Shown one piece after another: positions 18,163 to 53,267 of a DNA stretch of 64,000 nucleotides; position 1 is the first letter of the stretch; every line of letters begins with the position of its first letter. This DNA is from Sphingopyxis sp. QXT-31 (GTDB taxonomy: Bacteria; Pseudomonadota; Alphaproteobacteria; Sphingomonadales; Sphingomonadaceae): the NCBI RefSeq assembly GCF_001984035.1, contig NZ_CP019449.1:1054001-1118000 (forward strand), given 5' to 3'. The notes under the pieces were generated by a model. The model had not been told where the DNA came from, searched no databases, and was given only the letters and a program-made list of their open reading frames with translations. Made by a program: the position numbers and the translations under genes.

Positions 18163-18238
18163 GGGCCTGTAGCTCAATGGTTAGAGCTGGCCGCTCATAA
18201 CGGCTAGGTTGCGGGTTCGAGTCCTGCCGGGCCCACCA
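18163..18238 (+). tRNA. tRNA with CAT anticodon (probably Ile2, else elongator Met)
   Basis: A full cloverleaf of 76 nt with encoded CCA. The acceptor stem GGGCCTG pairs with CGGGCCC, the D arm is AGCTC..GAGCT, the anticodon loop is CTCATAA with CAT at 18196-18198, and the T arm is GCGGGTTCGAGTCCTGC. The 5' half resembles alphaproteobacterial tRNA-Ile2, whose C34 is changed to lysidine to read AUA. It is not the initiator, because G1-C72 is paired. Confidence 0.9.
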
Positions 18239-20109: not shown

Positions 20110-20186
<77 letters not shown>

Positions 20187-35970: not shown

Positions 35971-38262
35971 ATGGCGACCAGCGCTCCCTTGGCGAACGAC
36001 AGCGATTCCGGCGGACAGAACGTGCGCGCCAAGGCCTGGCAGTTCGCAGTGCCCGAATATTATGCGCTCGCGGTGATGCTCAGCGTCGGCATTGCAACCT
36101 ATATCTTCGTCACTGGCGACGCGCAGAGCGACCGGCTGCTCACCCCCGCGCTCGTCGCCGCGATCATGGTCGCGAACCTGCTGCCCGCCATGACCCTCAT
36201 TGTGCTTGCGGGCAGTCGGATCGCGCGCGCGCGCGCCACCAGTTCGATGGCGGGGGGCAACGGTCGCCTTCACGTCCGCCTCGTCGCGCTCTTTTCGCTG
36301 ATCGCCGCAACGCCGACGATGCTCGTCGTAATCTTCGCGTCCTTGCTCTTCCAGCTCGGCGTCGATTTCTGGTTCTCGGACCGCTCGCGCGGCATGTTTG
36401 AAAATGCCGCCAGCCTCGCGCAGGGCTATTATCAGGAAAACCAGCGTGAGGTCGTTGCGAATACCGAAAAGATGGCGCAGGATCTCGGCGCCATCCTGAC
36501 GCGCTTCCCGATCGATGGCCCCGATTTCGCCGACTATTATCTGCAGCAGGTCGTCGTCCGGAACCTCAATGAATCGGCGATCATCGAGGTCGGTGCCGAT
36601 GGCGTCGCGCGCACTGCCGCGATGATCGACCCCGACAATCGCGACGCCGAAGCGCGGATCACGCCCGAGATGGTCGCGCGGCTCGACAGCGGCGAAAAGG
36701 TGATCGCCTCGCGCCAGCAGGACCGAATCGAAGCGGCGACCAGGCTGCCCGGCCGCACGCGCGCCTATCTCTACGCCTCGCGCGACGCCAATGTCCTCGG
36801 TTTTCAGCAGTCGGTGCGCGCCGGCACCGTGCTGGCGGATTACAACGCGCTGTTCCAGCGCTCGCAGTTGCTCCAGCTCCAGTTCAACGGTGCGCTCTAT
36901 CTCGGCGCTTTGCTGTTGCTCGCGCTTGCCGTGATCGCGGCGATCGTCGTTGCCGATCGCATCGTGCGCCCGCTCGGCACGCTCGTCGGCGCGACGCGCA
37001 CCGCCGCGGGCGGCGACCTGTCGGTGCGCGTCACGCCGACCGCGCACGACGACGAAATTTCAGTTCTTGCCAACGCCTTTAACCGCATGACTGAGCAGAT
37101 CCAGGGCCAGACCCATGCGCTCGTCAGCGCCAACGAACAGATCGAGGCGCGGCGCAGCTTTATCGAGGCGGTGCTCAGCGGCGTGTCGTCGGCGGTCGTG
37201 TCGGTCGACGCCGATCATCGCATCCTGCTCGTCAACGCAGCCGCCGAGCGGCTGATCGGCAGCGGCGCCGAGGAACTCACCGGGCGCCCGCTCGCCGAGG
37301 TCGCGCCCGAACTCGCGCGGCTGATCACCGGCGACGAGCGCGAGGCCGTGGTCCAGCTCGCGCGCAAGGAAGCCGAGCCGGCGACGCTCGCGGCCAAGGC
37401 CGTCGCGCAGGGCGACGGCTTCGTGCTCAGCTTCGAGGATATCACCCAGCAATTGCTCGACCAGCGCCGCGCGGCCTGGTCCGACGTCGCGCGCCGCATC
37501 GCGCACGAGATCAAGAATCCGCTCACCCCGATCCAGCTCGCCGCCGAACGCCTCCAGCGCCGCTTCGGCGACAAGGTCGAGGGCGACCAGGCGACCTTCC
37601 GCAAGCTCACCGACACGGTGATCCGCCAGGTCCACGACATGCGGCGCATGGTCGACGAATTTTCCAGCTTCGCGCGCATGCCCAAACCGACCTTCGGCGT
37701 CGAGGACGTCCGCGACATATTGAAGCAGGCGGTGTTCCTCTTCGAGGTGGCCAAGCCCGATATCGAATTCGGCGTCACCATCCCCAACGAGATCGAACCC
37801 CTCGTCTGCGACCGCCGCCTTCTGTCACAGGCCCTAACGAACATCGTCAAGAATGCCGTGGAAGCGATTGAAGAAAATACCAAAAATTCCGAAACTTCAC
37901 CGATAGGCCACATCCACGCCACCCTCGATATGGGGAAGGGTGGCGAAATGACGATCAGCATCACCGACGACGGCATCGGCCTCCCCGAAGCCCGCGACAG
38001 CATCGCCGAGCCCTATATGACCACGCGCCAGGGCGGCACGGGTCTCGGGCTCGCGATCGTCAAGAAGATCGTCGAGCAACATTATGGCGAGCTCGAATTC
38101 GCCGACAATCCCGCAGGGCAGGGGACGCGCGTCACGCTGACGCTCCACCCCGACCGCCTGCGCCCGCTGATGGGGCGCGGCGCCGACACCATGACAGGGC
38201 AGGCTGAAACGGTCCCCGGACGCTTCCGGAACCGCCAGGACAGAGAAGAATATGGCGCTTGA
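35971..38262 (+). CDS. ntrY: Nitrogen regulation sensor histidine kinase NtrY
   Basis: A 763-residue membrane kinase. Several N-terminal helices (ALAVMLSVGIATYIFVT, LVAAIMVANLLPAMTLIVLA, LVALFSLIAATPTMLVVIFA) and another before the HAMP domain (ALYLGALLLLALAVIAAIVV) flank a periplasmic sensor region. Then follow HAMP (RPLGTLVGATRTAAGGDLSV), a PAS domain (VVSVDADHRILLVNAAAERL), the H-box H512 in RRIAHEIKNPLTPIQLAAER, and a full ATPase domain (NIVKNAVEAI, DDGIGLPE, TGLGLAIVKKI). NtrY-NtrX controls nitrogen, envelope and respiration genes in alphaproteobacteria. The ATG at 35971 is preceded by AGGGA; an upstream in-frame ATG at 35941 is less likely. Confidence 0.93.
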   Translation: MATSAPLANDSDSGGQNVRAKAWQFAVPEYYALAVMLSVGIATYIFVTGDAQSDRLLTPALVAAIMVANLLPAMTLIVLAGSRIARARATSSMAGGNGRLHVRLVALFSLIAATPTMLVVIFASLLFQLGVDFWFSDRSRGMFENAASLAQGYYQENQREVVANTEKMAQDLGAILTRFPIDGPDFADYYLQQVVVRNLNESAIIEVGADGVARTAAMIDPDNRDAEARITPEMVARLDSGEKVIASRQQDRIEAATRLPGRTRAYLYASRDANVLGFQQSVRAGTVLADYNALFQRSQLLQLQFNGALYLGALLLLALAVIAAIVVADRIVRPLGTLVGATRTAAGGDLSVRVTPTAHDDEISVLANAFNRMTEQIQGQTHALVSANEQIEARRSFIEAVLSGVSSAVVSVDADHRILLVNAAAERLIGSGAEELTGRPLAEVAPELARLITGDEREAVVQLARKEAEPATLAAKAVAQGDGFVLSFEDITQQLLDQRRAAWSDVARRIAHEIKNPLTPIQLAAERLQRRFGDKVEGDQATFRKLTDTVIRQVHDMRRMVDEFSSFARMPKPTFGVEDVRDILKQAVFLFEVAKPDIEFGVTIPNEIEPLVCDRRLLSQALTNIVKNAVEAIEENTKNSETSPIGHIHATLDMGKGGEMTISITDDGIGLPEARDSIAEPYMTTRQGGTGLGLAIVKKIVEQHYGELEFADNPAGQGTRVTLTLHPDRLRPLMGRGADTMTGQAETVPGRFRNRQDREEYGA

Positions 38263-39625
38263 TATTTTGATCGTCGACGACGAGCGCGACATTTGCGAGC
38301 TGGTCGCCGGCGTCATGGAAGACGAAGGTTATGAGGCGCGCACCGCGTCGGACAGCGATGCCGCACTCGAGGCGATCCGCCAGCGGCGGCCGTCGCTCGC
38401 GCTGATCGACGTCTGGCTGCAGGGTTCGCGGCTCGATGGGCTGGGGCTGGTCGAGGCGATCAAGGCGTTCGACCCGACACTGCCGATCATCGTGATTTCG
38501 GGGCACGGCGGGCTCGACACCGCGGTCGCCGCGATCCGCCGCGGCGCCTTCGACTTCATCGAAAAGCCGTTCGAGGCCGAACGCCTGCTCCACCTCGTCG
38601 CGCGCGCGACCGAGAGCGAGCGGCTGAAGTTCGAATATGAGCGCCTCCGCGAACGCGCCGGCCCTGCCGACGAACTCACCGGGTCGAGCGCGGCGATCAA
38701 CAATGTCCGCGCGACACTGAAGCGCGTCGCGGGTACCGGCAGCCGCGTGCTGATCACCGGCGCCGCGGGGGTCGGCAAGGAGGTCGCGGCGCGCGTGCTA
38801 CACGGCTGGAGCGGGCGCCAGACCGCGCCCTTCCGTGTCATCTCCTCGGCGCGGATGGATCCAGAGACCGTCGAGGCCGAGTTGTTCGGCGCCGAGGGCG
38901 AGGATGGCGCGATCCGCGTCGGCCTGCTCGAACAGGCGCATGGCGGCACGCTCTTCCTCGACGAGGTCGCCGACATGCCGCTGACCACCCAAGGCAAGAT
39001 CCTGCGGGTACTGACCGACCAGAGCTTCACCCGCGTTGGCGGCCGCACCATGATCCGCGTCGACGTGCGCATCATCTCGGGCTCGGCGCGCGACCTGATG
39101 ACCGAGATCGCCGAGGGGCGTTTTCGCGAGGACCTTTATTACCGGCTCAACGTCGTGCCTGTGCATATCCCGTCGCTGCGCGAGCGGCGCGACGACATCG
39201 CCTCGCTCTGCGAACATTTCGTGAGCCGCTACGCCGCCGATCGCCACGCGCCGCCGCCGGAGATCAGCGCCGAGGCGATGGCCGCGCTCCAGGCGCACGA
39301 CTGGCCGGGCAATGTCCGCGAGCTGCGCAATGTGATCGAGCGCGTGATGATCCTGGCGCCCAGCGACCGGCTGGGGCGGATCGACGCCGACATGCTGCCC
39401 GCCGAACTGGTGCGCGGCGGCACCGACATCCTGCCCAACGCCGAATCGATCACTGCGATCCCGCTCAAGGAAGCGCGCGAGAATTTCGAGCGCGAATATC
39501 TGCGCATCCAGATCAACCGCTTCTCGGGTAATATCTCGCGCACCGCGACCTTCATCGGCATGGAGCGCTCGGCGCTGCACCGGAAGCTGAAGCTTTTGGG
39601 TTTGACCGATAATTCGGAAGAGTGA
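38252..39625 (+). CDS. ntrX: Response regulator NtrX (lacking the GAFTGA loop)
   Basis: A 457-residue protein whose start overlaps ntrY by 11 nt. The receiver domain has LIVDDERDICELV and phosphoacceptor D53 (ALIDVWLQGS). The AAA+ domain has a Walker-A-like GAAGVGKE and GGTLFLDEVADMPL, but the loop between ELFGAE and GLLEQAHGG lacks GAFTGA, so it should not open sigma-54 promoters; this is usual for NtrX. The C-terminus is a Fis-type helix-turn-helix (NISRTATFIGMERSALHRKL). It is the presumed target of NtrY. Confidence 0.93.
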   Translation: MALDILIVDDERDICELVAGVMEDEGYEARTASDSDAALEAIRQRRPSLALIDVWLQGSRLDGLGLVEAIKAFDPTLPIIVISGHGGLDTAVAAIRRGAFDFIEKPFEAERLLHLVARATESERLKFEYERLRERAGPADELTGSSAAINNVRATLKRVAGTGSRVLITGAAGVGKEVAARVLHGWSGRQTAPFRVISSARMDPETVEAELFGAEGEDGAIRVGLLEQAHGGTLFLDEVADMPLTTQGKILRVLTDQSFTRVGGRTMIRVDVRIISGSARDLMTEIAEGRFREDLYYRLNVVPVHIPSLRERRDDIASLCEHFVSRYAADRHAPPPEISAEAMAALQAHDWPGNVRELRNVIERVMILAPSDRLGRIDADMLPAELVRGGTDILPNAESITAIPLKEARENFEREYLRIQINRFSGNISRTATFIGMERSALHRKLKLLGLTDNSEE

Positions 39626-39754
39626 AGTCCAACGCTTCATGGCTTTGCGCTAGACCTGCGCTGCGCTTTGTCGCATATTGCGCACGCCAAGGCGAAGGCA
39701 ACGGGCCGAAACGGGCCGTCCAGCGGTTTTTGCCGCCAAGAACAGGAGGCCAAT

Positions 39755-40246
39755 GTGTCCGATAAAAACCAGAATCTCCAGGATCTCTTCCTCAACGCCC
39801 TGCGACGCAGCAAGACACCGGTGACGATGTTCCTCGTCAAAGGCGTCAAACTGCAGGGAATCATCACCTGGTTCGACAATTTCTCGTTGCTGCTGCGCCG
39901 CGACGGGCAGTCGCAGCTCGTCTACAAGCACGCGATTTCGACGGTCATGCCCTCGCATGATTTCGACCTCGCCTCGCTCGGCAACGACATTCGCGAGGCG
40001 CCGGCGAGCAAGGGCAAGGCGCTGCAGGACGTGTTCCTCAACGCGGTGCGCAAGTCGGACGAATCGGTGACGATGTTCCTCGTCAACGGCGTGATGCTCC
40101 AGGGCGACATCGTCGCTTTCGACCTGTTCTGCATGTTGCTCGAGCGCGAGCGGCAGGTGCAGCTGGTCTACAAGCACGCCATCTCGACGGTGCAGCCCAA
40201 CGGGCCGATCAACCTGAGCGACAGCGAGCCCGAAGGCGACGCCTGA
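39755..40246 (+). CDS. hfq: Hfq with two tandem Sm-like domains
   Basis: A 163-residue protein containing two complete Hfq domains. Domain 1 (residues ~5-66) has [33 protein letters not shown] and YKHAISTV; domain 2 (~88-147) has [33 protein letters not shown] and YKHAISTV. A typical alphaproteobacterial Hfq has one domain (~80 residues) and forms a hexamer, so this may assemble as a trimer of fused pairs. Domain 2 replaces the distal-face Lys by Met (VMLQG) and its rim is less basic (RKSDE), so the two halves may differ in RNA preference. A GTG start with perfect AGGAGG upstream. It lies 129 nt after ntrX and 8 nt before hflX. Confidence 0.95.
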
Positions 40247-40254
40247 TCGATATC

Positions 40255-41598
40255 GTGGCCGAAAGCGAAGAGGTAACCCGCGGCGCGACCGCGGTGCTGA
40301 TTGTGCCCGAATGGCACGGGCAGCGCCTGTCGCGCGACCTCGACGCGCGCGCCGAGGAGGCCAAGGGGCTCGCACTCGCGATCGGGCTCGAGGTCGTGGC
40401 GGTATTCCCGCTTCGGCTGCGGCAGACGCGCGCGGCGACCCTGCTTGGCGTCGGGCAGATTGACGCCATTAAAGCTGAGATCGGGGAAGGGGCCGCGCAA
40501 CTCGTCATCGTCGACGCGGCGCTGACCGCGATCCAGCAGCGCAACCTGGAGACGGCGTTCGGCACCAAGGTCATCGACCGCACGGGATTGATCCTCGAAA
40601 TCTTCGGCGAGCGTGCCGCGACGGCCGAGGGGCGGCTGCAGGTCGAGTTGGCGCATCTCGATTATCAGGCGGGGCGGCTGGTGCGCAGCTGGACCCATCT
40701 CGAGCGCCAGCGCGGCGGCTTCGGCTTCCTCGGCGGGCCGGGCGAGACGCAGATCGAGGCCGACAGGCGGATGATCCGCAACCGCATGGCGCGCATCCGC
40801 AAACAGCTGGAAGACGCACGGCGCACACGGCAGTTGCAGCGCTCGAAACGCCAGCGTGCGCCGTGGCCCGTGGTCGCGCTCGTCGGTTATACCAACGCCG
40901 GAAAATCGACCTTTTTCAATCGCCTGACGGGAAGTGACGTCATGGCGGAAGACATGCTCTTCGCGACGCTCGACCCGACGATGCGCGAGATACGGCTGCC
41001 CGGCATCGACAAGGCCATCCTGTCCGACACCGTCGGCTTCGTCTCTGACCTGCCGACCGAATTGGTCGCGGCCTTCCGCGCGACGCTGGAGGAGGTCACC
41101 ACCGCCGACCTGATCGTCCACGTCCGCGACATCGTCCACCCCGACAGCGAGGCGCAATATGCCGATGTCGTTGCGATCCTCAATTCGCTGGGCGTCAACG
41201 GGCCACAGGACGGCGGGGAAGGGGGCGCGGATACTCCCGACGTCATCCCGCAGATCGAGATCTGGAACAAGATCGACACCGCCGATCCCGAACATCGCGC
41301 GCAAATTGCCGAGATGGCGGCGCGGCGGACGGACGTCGCGATGATTTCGGCGGTGACCGGCGAGGGCGTCGAGGGCGCGCGCACGCTCATGGCGTCACGC
41401 CTGACCGCGCTGCACAAGGTTCAGCGCATCTTCCTGCGCTACGAAAAGGGCGAAGCGGCGGCGTGGCTTCACGCGCGCGGCGAAGTGCTGAGCGATACGC
41501 CCGAAGGCGAGGGGCATGTGCTGACGGTGCGGCTGGACCCGGCGGATGCGGCGCGCTTCGAGCGATTGTGGCCGACGGAGACTACTCCGACGCCTTGA
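40255..41598 (+). CDS. hflX: Ribosome-associated GTPase HflX
   Basis: A 447-residue GTPase starting with GTG. The N-terminal domain contains LGVGQIDAIKAEI and VELAHLDYQAGRLVRSWTHL, then GGFGFLGGPGETQIEADRR; the GTPase domain has the P-loop GYTNAGKST at 211-219, DTVGFV (G3), and NKID (G4). It splits or rescues stalled ribosomes. An insertion of ~15 Gly/Asp residues before NKID is visible. Linkage to hfq is the classical hfq-hflX order. It converges on mazG with a 17-nt overlap. Confidence 0.95.
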   Translation: MAESEEVTRGATAVLIVPEWHGQRLSRDLDARAEEAKGLALAIGLEVVAVFPLRLRQTRAATLLGVGQIDAIKAEIGEGAAQLVIVDAALTAIQQRNLETAFGTKVIDRTGLILEIFGERAATAEGRLQVELAHLDYQAGRLVRSWTHLERQRGGFGFLGGPGETQIEADRRMIRNRMARIRKQLEDARRTRQLQRSKRQRAPWPVVALVGYTNAGKSTFFNRLTGSDVMAEDMLFATLDPTMREIRLPGIDKAILSDTVGFVSDLPTELVAAFRATLEEVTTADLIVHVRDIVHPDSEAQYADVVAILNSLGVNGPQDGGEGGADTPDVIPQIEIWNKIDTADPEHRAQIAEMAARRTDVAMISAVTGEGVEGARTLMASRLTALHKVQRIFLRYEKGEAAAWLHARGEVLSDTPEGEGHVLTVRLDPADAARFERLWPTETTPTP

Positions 41599-51420: not shown

Positions 51421-51510
51421 GGACAGGTGGCCGAGTGGTTTAAGGCAGCGGTCTTGAAAACCGCCGTGGGTGCAAGCTCACCGTGGGTTCGAATCCCACC
51501 CTGTCCGCCA
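51421..51510 (+). tRNA. tRNA-Ser(TGA)
   Basis: A class II tRNA of 90 nt with encoded CCA. The acceptor stem GGACAGG pairs with CCTGTCC, the anticodon loop is CTTGAAA with TGA at 51455-51457, a long variable arm GTGGGTGCAAGCTCAC follows, and the T arm contains GTGGGTTCGAATCCCAC. Confidence 0.97.
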
Positions 51511-52299: not shown

Positions 52300-52863
52300 T
52301 CAGCTGGCGGCTTTAACGAGCACCCACAGGCCGATGACGAGGAAGAGCCCGGCCGCGATCCTGCGTACCGTGTCGAGGTTGACGCGCTTCAGCAGTTCGT
52401 GGCCGAGGAAGATCGCAGGGACGTTGGCGATCATCATACCAATCGTCGTTCCCGCCGTGACCAGTGCGACGCTCTGATATTGCGCGCCGAGCGCGATCGT
52501 CGCGACCTGGGTCTTGTCGCCCATTTCGACGAGGAAGAAGGCGATCAGCGTGGTCAGGAAGGCCCCGAATCGCGGTTTGGGGGTTTCGTCGTCCTCGAGC
52601 TTGTCGGGGATCAGCGTCCACGCCGCCATCGCGATGAAGCTCGCGCCGATGGCGTAGCGGAAGACCGGGCTGTCGAGGAAGGCGGCCGCCGAGGCGCCGA
52701 GCAGCGCGGCGAGCGCGTGGTTCGCGAGCGTTGCCACCAAGATGCCGACCATGATCGGCAGCGGTTTGTTGAAGCGGGTCGCGAGCAGGATCGCGAGCAA
52801 TTGCGTCTTGTCGCCGATCTCGGCGAGCGCGACGACGGCGGTCGAGGTGAAGAGGGCTTCCAT
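52300..52863 (-). CDS. TMEM165/GDT1 (UPF0016) family Mn2+/Ca2+ transporter
   Basis: A 187-residue membrane protein with six predicted helices. The two ExGDK(T/S) motifs, ALAEIGDKTQLLAI and VEMGDKTQVATIAL, define the UPF0016/GDT1 family, whose bacterial members export Mn2+. A yybP-ykoY (manganese) riboswitch lies upstream on the same strand, strongly supporting a manganese role. The start at 52863 is preceded by GGAG close to a 13-bp hairpin that could close the ribosome-binding site. Such a gene would protect the cell from manganese overload. Confidence 0.95.
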   Translation of the reverse strand: MEALFTSTAVVALAEIGDKTQLLAILLATRFNKPLPIMVGILVATLANHALAALLGASAAAFLDSPVFRYAIGASFIAMAAWTLIPDKLEDDETPKPRFGAFLTTLIAFFLVEMGDKTQVATIALGAQYQSVALVTAGTTIGMMIANVPAIFLGHELLKRVNLDTVRRIAAGLFLVIGLWVLVKAAS

Positions 52864-52874
52864 GGGACACTCCG

Positions 52875-52926
52875 GGGCCGGGCGGCGTTGCGATTCCAAC
52901 GGACATCGAAACCCGCCGCCCGGCCC
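52875..52926 (-). promoter_or_regulatory. 13-bp hairpin next to the Shine-Dalgarno of the Mn transporter gene
   Basis: Bases 52875-52887 (GGGCCGGGCGGCG) and 52914-52926 (CGCCGCCCGGCCC) are perfect complements around a 26-nt loop. The stem ends 1 nt before the GGAG at 52873-52870, and no T-run follows. It is the likely expression platform of the riboswitch, acting on ribosome access rather than by intrinsic termination; this is inference from position. Confidence 0.6.
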
Positions 52927-52947
52927 GGACGTGGGGTCGATGCCATT

Positions 52948-53045
52948 GGTCTCGCCCAAGCGCTTTGCGCTTCCACCGCACCACGGCCTCTCGACCGAGT
53001 ATGTTGACGCGGTGGCCCGTCCGGATGGACGGCTGGCTACTCCCC
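52948..53045 (-). ncRNA. yybP-ykoY manganese riboswitch
   Basis: On the minus strand the segment starts GGGGAGTAG, then has CGTCAACATACTCGG and ends GGGCGAGACC, the conserved sequence elements of the yybP-ykoY Mn2+ aptamer in the right order, and the GDT1 family is a known downstream gene. The first nine bases coincide with the last codons and stop of the lipoprotein gene upstream. Confidence 0.9.
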
Positions 53046-53267
53046 AGATGACGTGGGTGCGTTAGGCGCTGGTGCTTCGGGAGGCAAGGGCTTTGGCGCC
53101 TCTTCTCCCGCATCCTTCGCAGCCTTGTCGGCGGCGGCGATGTCGGCGTCCATTGCCTTGGCGCGCGCCTCGATCTCCTTCGTCGCCTTGTCGTAGCGGT
53201 CCTCGAACTTGGGCTCCTTCTCGCACGCGGCAAGCAGCAAGGGCAGGAGGAGCAGCGCCGCGCGCAT
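53037..53267 (-). CDS. Small lipoprotein overlapping the Mn riboswitch
   Basis: A 76-residue lipoprotein: leader MRAALLLLPLLLAAC (lipobox LAAC, Cys15), then a charged helix (DRYDKATKEIEARAKAMDAD, IAAADKAAKDAGEE) and a Pro-rich tail ending APTSSGE. Its ATG overlaps the tamB stop (TGATG), so it is made together with TamB. The last codons (GGG GAG TAG) form the start of the riboswitch aptamer. Role unknown; linkage to TamA/TamB suggests an envelope function. Confidence 0.8.
   Translation of the reverse strand: MRAALLLLPLLLAACEKEPKFEDRYDKATKEIEARAKAMDADIAAADKAAKDAGEEAPKPLPPEAPAPNAPTSSGE

Follow-up and report, generated by a model that had tools for sequence, protein, structure and literature searches.

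The Hfq of Zymomonas mobilis (ZMO0347) contains two Sm-like domains, and double-domain Hfqs were reported in six other Sphingomonadales species in the same work, which also raised the question of whether three chains form a ring (Yang et al., 2010; PMC2877685). Z. mobilis Hfq contributes to inhibitor tolerance (PMC2877685; PMC9797736). It also matters for growth, according to a study whose authors state that a role of the protein as sRNA chaperone in that organism is still to be demonstrated (PMC7064620). The available parts of PMC4004385, which describes a GST-Hfq pull-down, give no oligomeric state, and those of PMC9797736 contain no mention of a double domain; structural terms on Hfq were not found in PMC7546472. 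The initial annotation of the locus described here called the RNA biology of such proteins little studied, which is fair: the 2010 report did not settle whether three chains form the ring, and no paper on the structure, the oligomeric state or the asymmetry (described below) of a tandem, fused or double Hfq came up in our search of the open-licence literature. The tandem form is modeled in NCBIfam as PRK14091 (NF010691, RNA chaperone Hfq, 176 positions), an entry that provides a name and a model without a mechanism.

The closest structure is the Hfq of Caulobacter crescentus (6gwk), which is the best PDB sequence match (E 2.4e-31) and Foldseek rank 1, to domain 1 of the tandem. Unlike the tandem, it has one domain per chain and six identical subunits, each with N28, K31 and a full rim. 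Its acidic tip docks on rim residues R18/K19 of the monomer next to it, whereas K21, which is part of the same patch, is not contacted directly; the tail residue E75 forms bonds with R49 and S39 of the neighbor (PMC6561178). By alignment, R18, K19, K21, R49, and S39 are positions 16, 17, 19, 47, and 37 of E. coli Hfq. On the distal face, the A-site involves Q52, Q33, and L32, and the R-site involves T61, L26, I30, and Y25 of the adjacent subunit, with a water-mediated part for N28; the two sites span a subunit interface (PMC10628458). In P. aeruginosa Hfq, the K31 backbone bonds the A phosphate and, in simulations, the N28 backbone lies at the N nucleotide (PMC8121710); N28 can also contact the partner protein Crc (PMC9890229).

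Gene, Locus and Domain Structure

The window analyzed here is a stretch of 64,000 nucleotides from Sphingopyxis sp. QXT-31. Its hfq gene (39755..40246, +) codes for 163 aa from a GTG start to a stop codon ending at 40246. A Shine-Dalgarno-like AGGAGG, read from the sequence, is located at 39744..39749 (+), 5 bases upstream of the GTG at 39755; an alternative, longer in-frame ORF starts at TTG 39668. The upstream neighbor is ntrX (38252..39625, +; NF051870, 709.5 bits), which was also used in the species tree, and the downstream neighbor is hflX (40255..41598, +; TIGR03156, 427.2 bits), giving the order ntrY-ntrX-hfq-hflX, followed by mazG on the opposite strand. NtrX-like and HflX-like ORFs were both present at 207 of 221 hfq loci with long flanks (the window, 80 named and 140 other loci), pooling tandem and single forms; the window is among the 207. 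This conserved ntrX-hfq-hflX neighborhood indicates that the window gene is the orthologous hfq and not a paralogue. PF17209 (E <= 0.001) matched this ORF alone across the 4,285,026 bases of the genome, which is a single contig; a second, single-domain Hfq with which the tandem could form mixed rings was thus not found. The named best matches to the protein were from Sphingopyxis.

Elsewhere in the window, a Mn2+ riboswitch (yybP-ykoY, RF00080, 55.6 bits) was found at 52884-53058 (-), at the start of an ORF (52300-52959, -) that presumably belongs to the UPF0016/GDT1-type Mn exporters, which it resembles. Rfam also identified three tRNA genes, at 18163-18235 (+), 20113-20186 (-), and 51421-51507 (+).

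The initial annotation had described two Hfq folds in one chain, and the profile searches bear this out. PF17209 (Hfq; cut-off 27 bits) matched twice, with 101.4 bits for domain 1 (Hfq/Sm core, residues 8-68; 39776..39958, +) and 90.4 bits for domain 2 (Hfq/Sm core; 40022..40210, +), and between the two matches lies a linker (39959..40021, +). Pfam gave 188.3 bits over two stretches and TIGR02383 183.3 bits against a cut-off of 61.7, while PRK14091 spanned residues 1-160 in one stretch (302.5 bits, cut-off 270). The motifs that had been claimed for each domain, QD-LFLN and YKHA, are recognizable in both halves as QD-FLN and YKHA, and 40 of 63 aligned positions are identical between the domains. 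An acidic C-terminal tail, identified from the net charge of tandem tails, follows domain 2 only (40211..40243, +). The window protein has the N-terminal helix and five-strand Sm fold of Hfq, and departs from the one Sm domain per chain of that family by carrying two. Because NCBIfam gives the tandem a model of its own, two domains per chain mark a subtype of Hfq.

An AlphaFold2 model built from 53 aligned sequences (pLDDT 89.1, pTM 0.85) predicted both Sm folds with confidence, placing helices at residues 8-19 and 90-101 and strands at 22-66 and 105-148 in domains 1 and 2, respectively. One domain alone covers TM 0.40 of the chain in Foldseek; compared with this value, the pTM implies a defined domain-domain pose, and the model thus suggests that the two domains have a confident relative position. 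Foldseek and VIA-align returned single-domain Hfq chains, with 6gwk as the best, which carry no information on inter-domain geometry, and no tandem Hfq was found in the PDB by sequence among 35 matched sequences, all of <=114 residues.

Distribution and Single Origin of the Fusion

A survey of Sphingomonadales found Hfq in 290 of 296 genomes of the order, and a family survey gave a match in 388 of 397 Sphingomonadaceae genomes. By hand count, the 388 genomes comprised about 340 with a tandem and 47 with a single Hfq; in the remaining one, G540, the gene is truncated by the end of its contig. A tandem was called at E <= about 1e-54, or from a double match for five members of the fast-evolving genus g12; single calls came from domain counts in 30 of 47 cases (11 + 19) and from E-values in the remaining 17. 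With the cut G540 set aside, each genus was all-tandem or all-single in this count. The named tandem genera include Sphingopyxis, Sphingobium, Novosphingobium, Sphingorhabdus, Blastomonas, Erythrobacter, Tsuneonella, and Croceibacterium, and Hankyongella ginsenosidimutans has a single-domain Hfq. A fused Hfq in Novosphingobium may already have been reported by Sun et al. in 2002. The statement that tandems occur in "some sphingomonads" was right as to their presence and understated their extent, as they occupy most Hfq-positive genomes of the family and have one origin. Chance, an assembly artefact and a recent in-frame duplication are rejected as sources of the tandem, given the divergence of its domains (40/63 identical) and its family-wide occurrence. 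The other finding that would have spoken against the initial reading, relatives with single-domain Hfqs only, is likewise contradicted by these numbers.

No tandem Hfq was found outside Sphingomonadaceae in samples of 385 alphaproteobacterial and 200 phylum genomes. In the former, 319 genomes had Hfq and 7 had two matches, namely 5 Sphingomonadaceae tandems, G606 with two separate loci and G853 with two contig-end fragments. In the latter, 129 had a match and 7 had two, namely 6 Sphingomonadaceae tandems and G948, with its matches on two contigs.

A few unusual loci were also observed. G298 carries two equal-scoring single Hfq matches on contig C1 (positions 50958 and 2859890 of 2,880,809 bases), perhaps because of an untrimmed circular overlap. 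An open frame of 895 aa with Hfq at its end (L196) was rejected as a chance frame, NtrX lying in a different one. L082 and L083, apparent single Hfqs with K28, both abut the end of a contig and are probably truncated tandems. Six metagenome proteins of 241-248 aa have three Hfq domains (P0001, P0002, P0003, P0004, P0008, and P0237) in the order D1-D1-D2 or D1-D2-D2, some with mixed middle domains; each is a singleton, on contigs of 791-1621 bp. No genome with more than two Hfq matches was found among the 296 of the order survey; among the family genomes checked by domain count, the fragmented G492 and G507 have four and three matches, respectively, scattered over contigs. The triple Hfqs may be either mosaic assemblies or rare unequal crossovers.

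The origin of the fusion was mapped on a tree of NtrX and HflX, with hfq excluded (FastTree, SH-like support; 153 rows, 149 different; 104 tandem and 49 single). It shows one change of state, with support of 100 on that branch, and no reversal from tandem to single was seen on it. With five Alphaproteobacteria from outside the family as the root, Sphingomonadaceae with a single-domain Hfq formed a grade below the tandem clade, L195 being the nearest of them. A tree of the Hfq domains themselves, set aside for having too few columns, placed domain 2 in one clade (support 93) and showed two changes for domain 1. On the NtrX and HflX tree, the tandem thus goes back to one fusion event in the ancestor of most Sphingomonadaceae.

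Divergence of the Two Domains

The 189 tandem loci, in which the window gene appears several times, gave 154 distinct domain pairs, 134 from the main clade and 20 from genus g12. The 126 single loci gave 70 distinct single Hfqs after removal of three truncated ones (L082, L083, and L087, the last with a stop inside the match). Since all tandems stem from one event, the residue counts below are not independent and record long conservation, not repeated events. Positions are numbered after E. coli Hfq through the alignment with the PDB matches.

In the window protein, positions 28 and 31 are both Lys in domain 1 (K29..K32; 39839..39850, +), and Asn and Met in domain 2 (N111..M114; 40085..40096, +). 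The same holds throughout the main clade: in 134/134 distinct tandems, the window protein included, K28 and K31 occur together in domain 1, as do N28 and M31 in domain 2. All 70 distinct single Hfqs have N28 and K31. Over six domains, the total number of Lys at these two positions is the same in the tandem as in single Hfq. The loss of the distal Lys from domain 2, already noticed in the window protein, is thus clade-wide; the gain of a Lys at 28 in domain 1, the proximal core in both halves and the acidic tail on domain 2 had not been mentioned in the initial annotation.

A second difference concerns the rim. Positions 16-19 read R17 R18 S19 K20 in domain 1 (39803..39814, +) and R99 K100 S101 D102, a degraded patch, in domain 2 (40049..40060, +). 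A basic residue occupies each of positions 16, 17, and 19 in 70/70 single Hfqs and in domain 1 of 134/134 main-clade tandems, but in domain 2 of only 10/134, so that the less basic rim proposed for domain 2 also extends across the clade. Of the 134 domain 2s, K or R is retained at 16 in 103, at 17 in 50, at 19 in 15, and at 47 in 19, and S or T at 37 in 3, whereas domain 1 keeps positions 16, 17, 19, 47, and 37 in every main-clade tandem. Further substitutions in domain 2 (n = 134) are N41 to L (128), W38 to A (119), M63 to Q (133), R47 to E (96), and D9 to E (50).

Other residues are unchanged in both domains (Q8, F25, G29, V30, L32, Q33, D40, Q52, Y55, K56, H57, and T61), allowing for one truncated domain-2 row. 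Five positions, Q8, F42, Y55, K56, and H57, make up what we take to be the proximal uridine pocket. Q8 is present in 134/134 of each domain, F42 in 134 domain 1s and 133 domain 2s (one Tyr), and Y55, K56, and H57 in 134 and 133 (one row cut short). Judged from the alignment, the core pocket residues are kept in both domains, but the pocket of domain 2 is not wholly unchanged (L41, E9).

Domain 2 has evolved faster, with a mean pairwise identity of 75% compared with 87% for domain 1, and the two domains of a main-clade protein are 58% identical on average. This rate might suggest that domain 2 was simply relaxed after the fusion, keeping its ring-forming and proximal residues while its other differences are without function. 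The scatter at position 19 of domain 2 (G in 43, E in 37, R in 13, and others; n = 134) is what relaxation predicts, and 7 of the 20 g12 tandems lack M31. However, drift would scatter residues that are here fixed or nearly so, as N28, M31, L41, Q63, and A38 of domain 2 are, and K28 of domain 1, present in every main-clade tandem, is not accounted for. In the main clade M31 does not look like decay, since it never varies although the rest of domain 2 changes more quickly than domain 1. We therefore consider relaxation an unlikely explanation. Rather, the conservation pattern suggests split RNA-binding roles of the two domains.

Genus g12 evolves fast and, by its sequences, departs in part from the main-clade signature. 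Among its 20 distinct tandems, domain 1 has K28 in 20/20, K or R at 31 in 20/20, and all three rim basics in 14/20, and domain 2 has N28 in 19/20, M31 in 13/20, and all three rim basics in 0/20. In the 8 most divergent (L307-L314), M31 is lost in 7/8 and domain 1 has R31 in 8/8. The same eight show F39 to H in 8/8 domain 2s and H57 to Q in 4/8 domain 1s.

A Proposed Ring of Three Chains

Our preferred reading is that the orthologous hfq was fused once and that three chains close into an alternating six-domain ring with divided roles, to which we assign a probability of roughly two-thirds. The data show the fusion, one origin for it on the tree made here, and the residue patterns; from these the ring, the alternation of domains, the pairing of neighbors and a weaker sRNA annealing are inferred. 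Three tandem chains would form a pseudo-hexamer with domains 1 and 2 in alternation. Domain 1 would supply two lysines on the distal face and the basic rim at which RNAs anneal, and domain 2 the core of the proximal uridine pocket with a weak rim and an acidic tail, giving a ring of three strong rims and three acidic tails. Each distal ARN site would combine position 31 of one domain with position 28 of its neighbor, and alternation would then leave exactly one Lys per site, K31 with N28 or K28 with M31. A side-chain role of these positions may be involved, although the contacts reported in P. aeruginosa are by the backbone; by analogy with N28 and Crc in that species, a protein partner could explain K28 instead.

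The linker and tails may be read in the same way. The linker has 12-22 aa between domain envelopes (161 distinct tandem cores), comparable to the 15-aa tail of Caulobacter Hfq (PMC6561178). With g12 excluded, mean net charge is -5.9 for tandem tails (134 distinct) and -1.1 for linkers (139 distinct), and -4.1 for single-Hfq tails (81 of 84; three tails of at least 40 residues excluded). The linker would be the former tail of domain 1, running past domain 2, and the domain 1 that follows in the ring would offer its rim as docking site for the tail of domain 2. Tail-contact positions kept in domain 1 and eroded in domain 2 are expected if the domain 2 tail meets the next domain 1.

The domains might instead sort by type, six chains stacking a domain-1 ring on a domain-2 ring (12 domains), with the first ring alone doing the normal work of Hfq. 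At 58% identity separate interfaces are conceivable, and the linker might span between rings. Sorting, however, would give one ring two Lys (K31 and K28) per ARN site and the other ring no Lys at all, which does not account for the compensating pattern, and the partition of tail and rim better suits neighbors within one ring. Both arguments are indirect. We regard this arrangement as quite improbable.

The function of the tandem may also have shifted. In PMC7064620, Z. mobilis Hfq neither co-purified with nor bound in vitro the sRNAs Zms4 and Zms6, whose levels were hfq-independent. Such non-binding fits a ring with half its rims, on the basis of two sRNAs only. It also fits the idea, compatible with an alternating ring, that annealing of sRNA to mRNA has ceased to be the main task of the tandem, which would now be chiefly an mRNA/distal-face or RNA-stability protein, as does the loss of most rim basics from domain 2. 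Against this stand the small number of sRNAs tested, the retention of the five presumed pocket residues in both domains, and the failure to find a ProQ match in this genome as a substitute. Such a change of function is possible but doubtful.

In E. coli, a mutation in Hfq appears six times per ring, which makes it hard to test whether six equal subunits are needed and how many rims or distal sites are used at once. The tandem chain is a natural Hfq whose two halves can be mutated separately, and the old question of whether three chains make the ring and whether the halves are equal is narrowed to a short list of mutations. It is also the Hfq of a large, industrially used family that includes Sphingopyxis, Novosphingobium, Sphingobium, and Zymomonas.

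Comparison with Known Systems

The double-domain architecture itself was already known; what this analysis adds is that the fusion maps to one origin and that the two halves have diverged in a fixed and complementary way, which appears to be new. Z. mobilis Hfq (P0235, 161 aa), from another genus than the window protein, shares its architecture and its K28/K31 - N28/M31 signature, and no analysis of this asymmetry was found in the available part of PMC2877685.

A likeness of principle exists with the eukaryotic Sm/LSm hetero-rings, which are pseudosymmetric, consist of diverged subunits and have a common ancestor with Hfq (PMC11655659). Sm/LSm rings are built from six or seven different subunits coded by separate genes, whereas the tandem Hfq carries two subunit types in one chain, and the analogy does not make it a member of that group. 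Tentatively, and at somewhat less than even odds, the tandem may represent a bacterial half-way house between homomeric Hfq and these hetero-rings, that is, an obligate alternating trimer whose K28/M31 swap would retain one lysine per distal ARN site across unlike interfaces and whose domains would share out rim and acidic tail, with three strong annealing edges instead of six, acting as a graded, weaker sRNA chaperone. Taken together, the tandem Hfq provides a homomeric RNA ring of mapped single origin that appears to be heading to pseudosymmetry, a step also taken by the eukaryotic Sm/LSm proteins.
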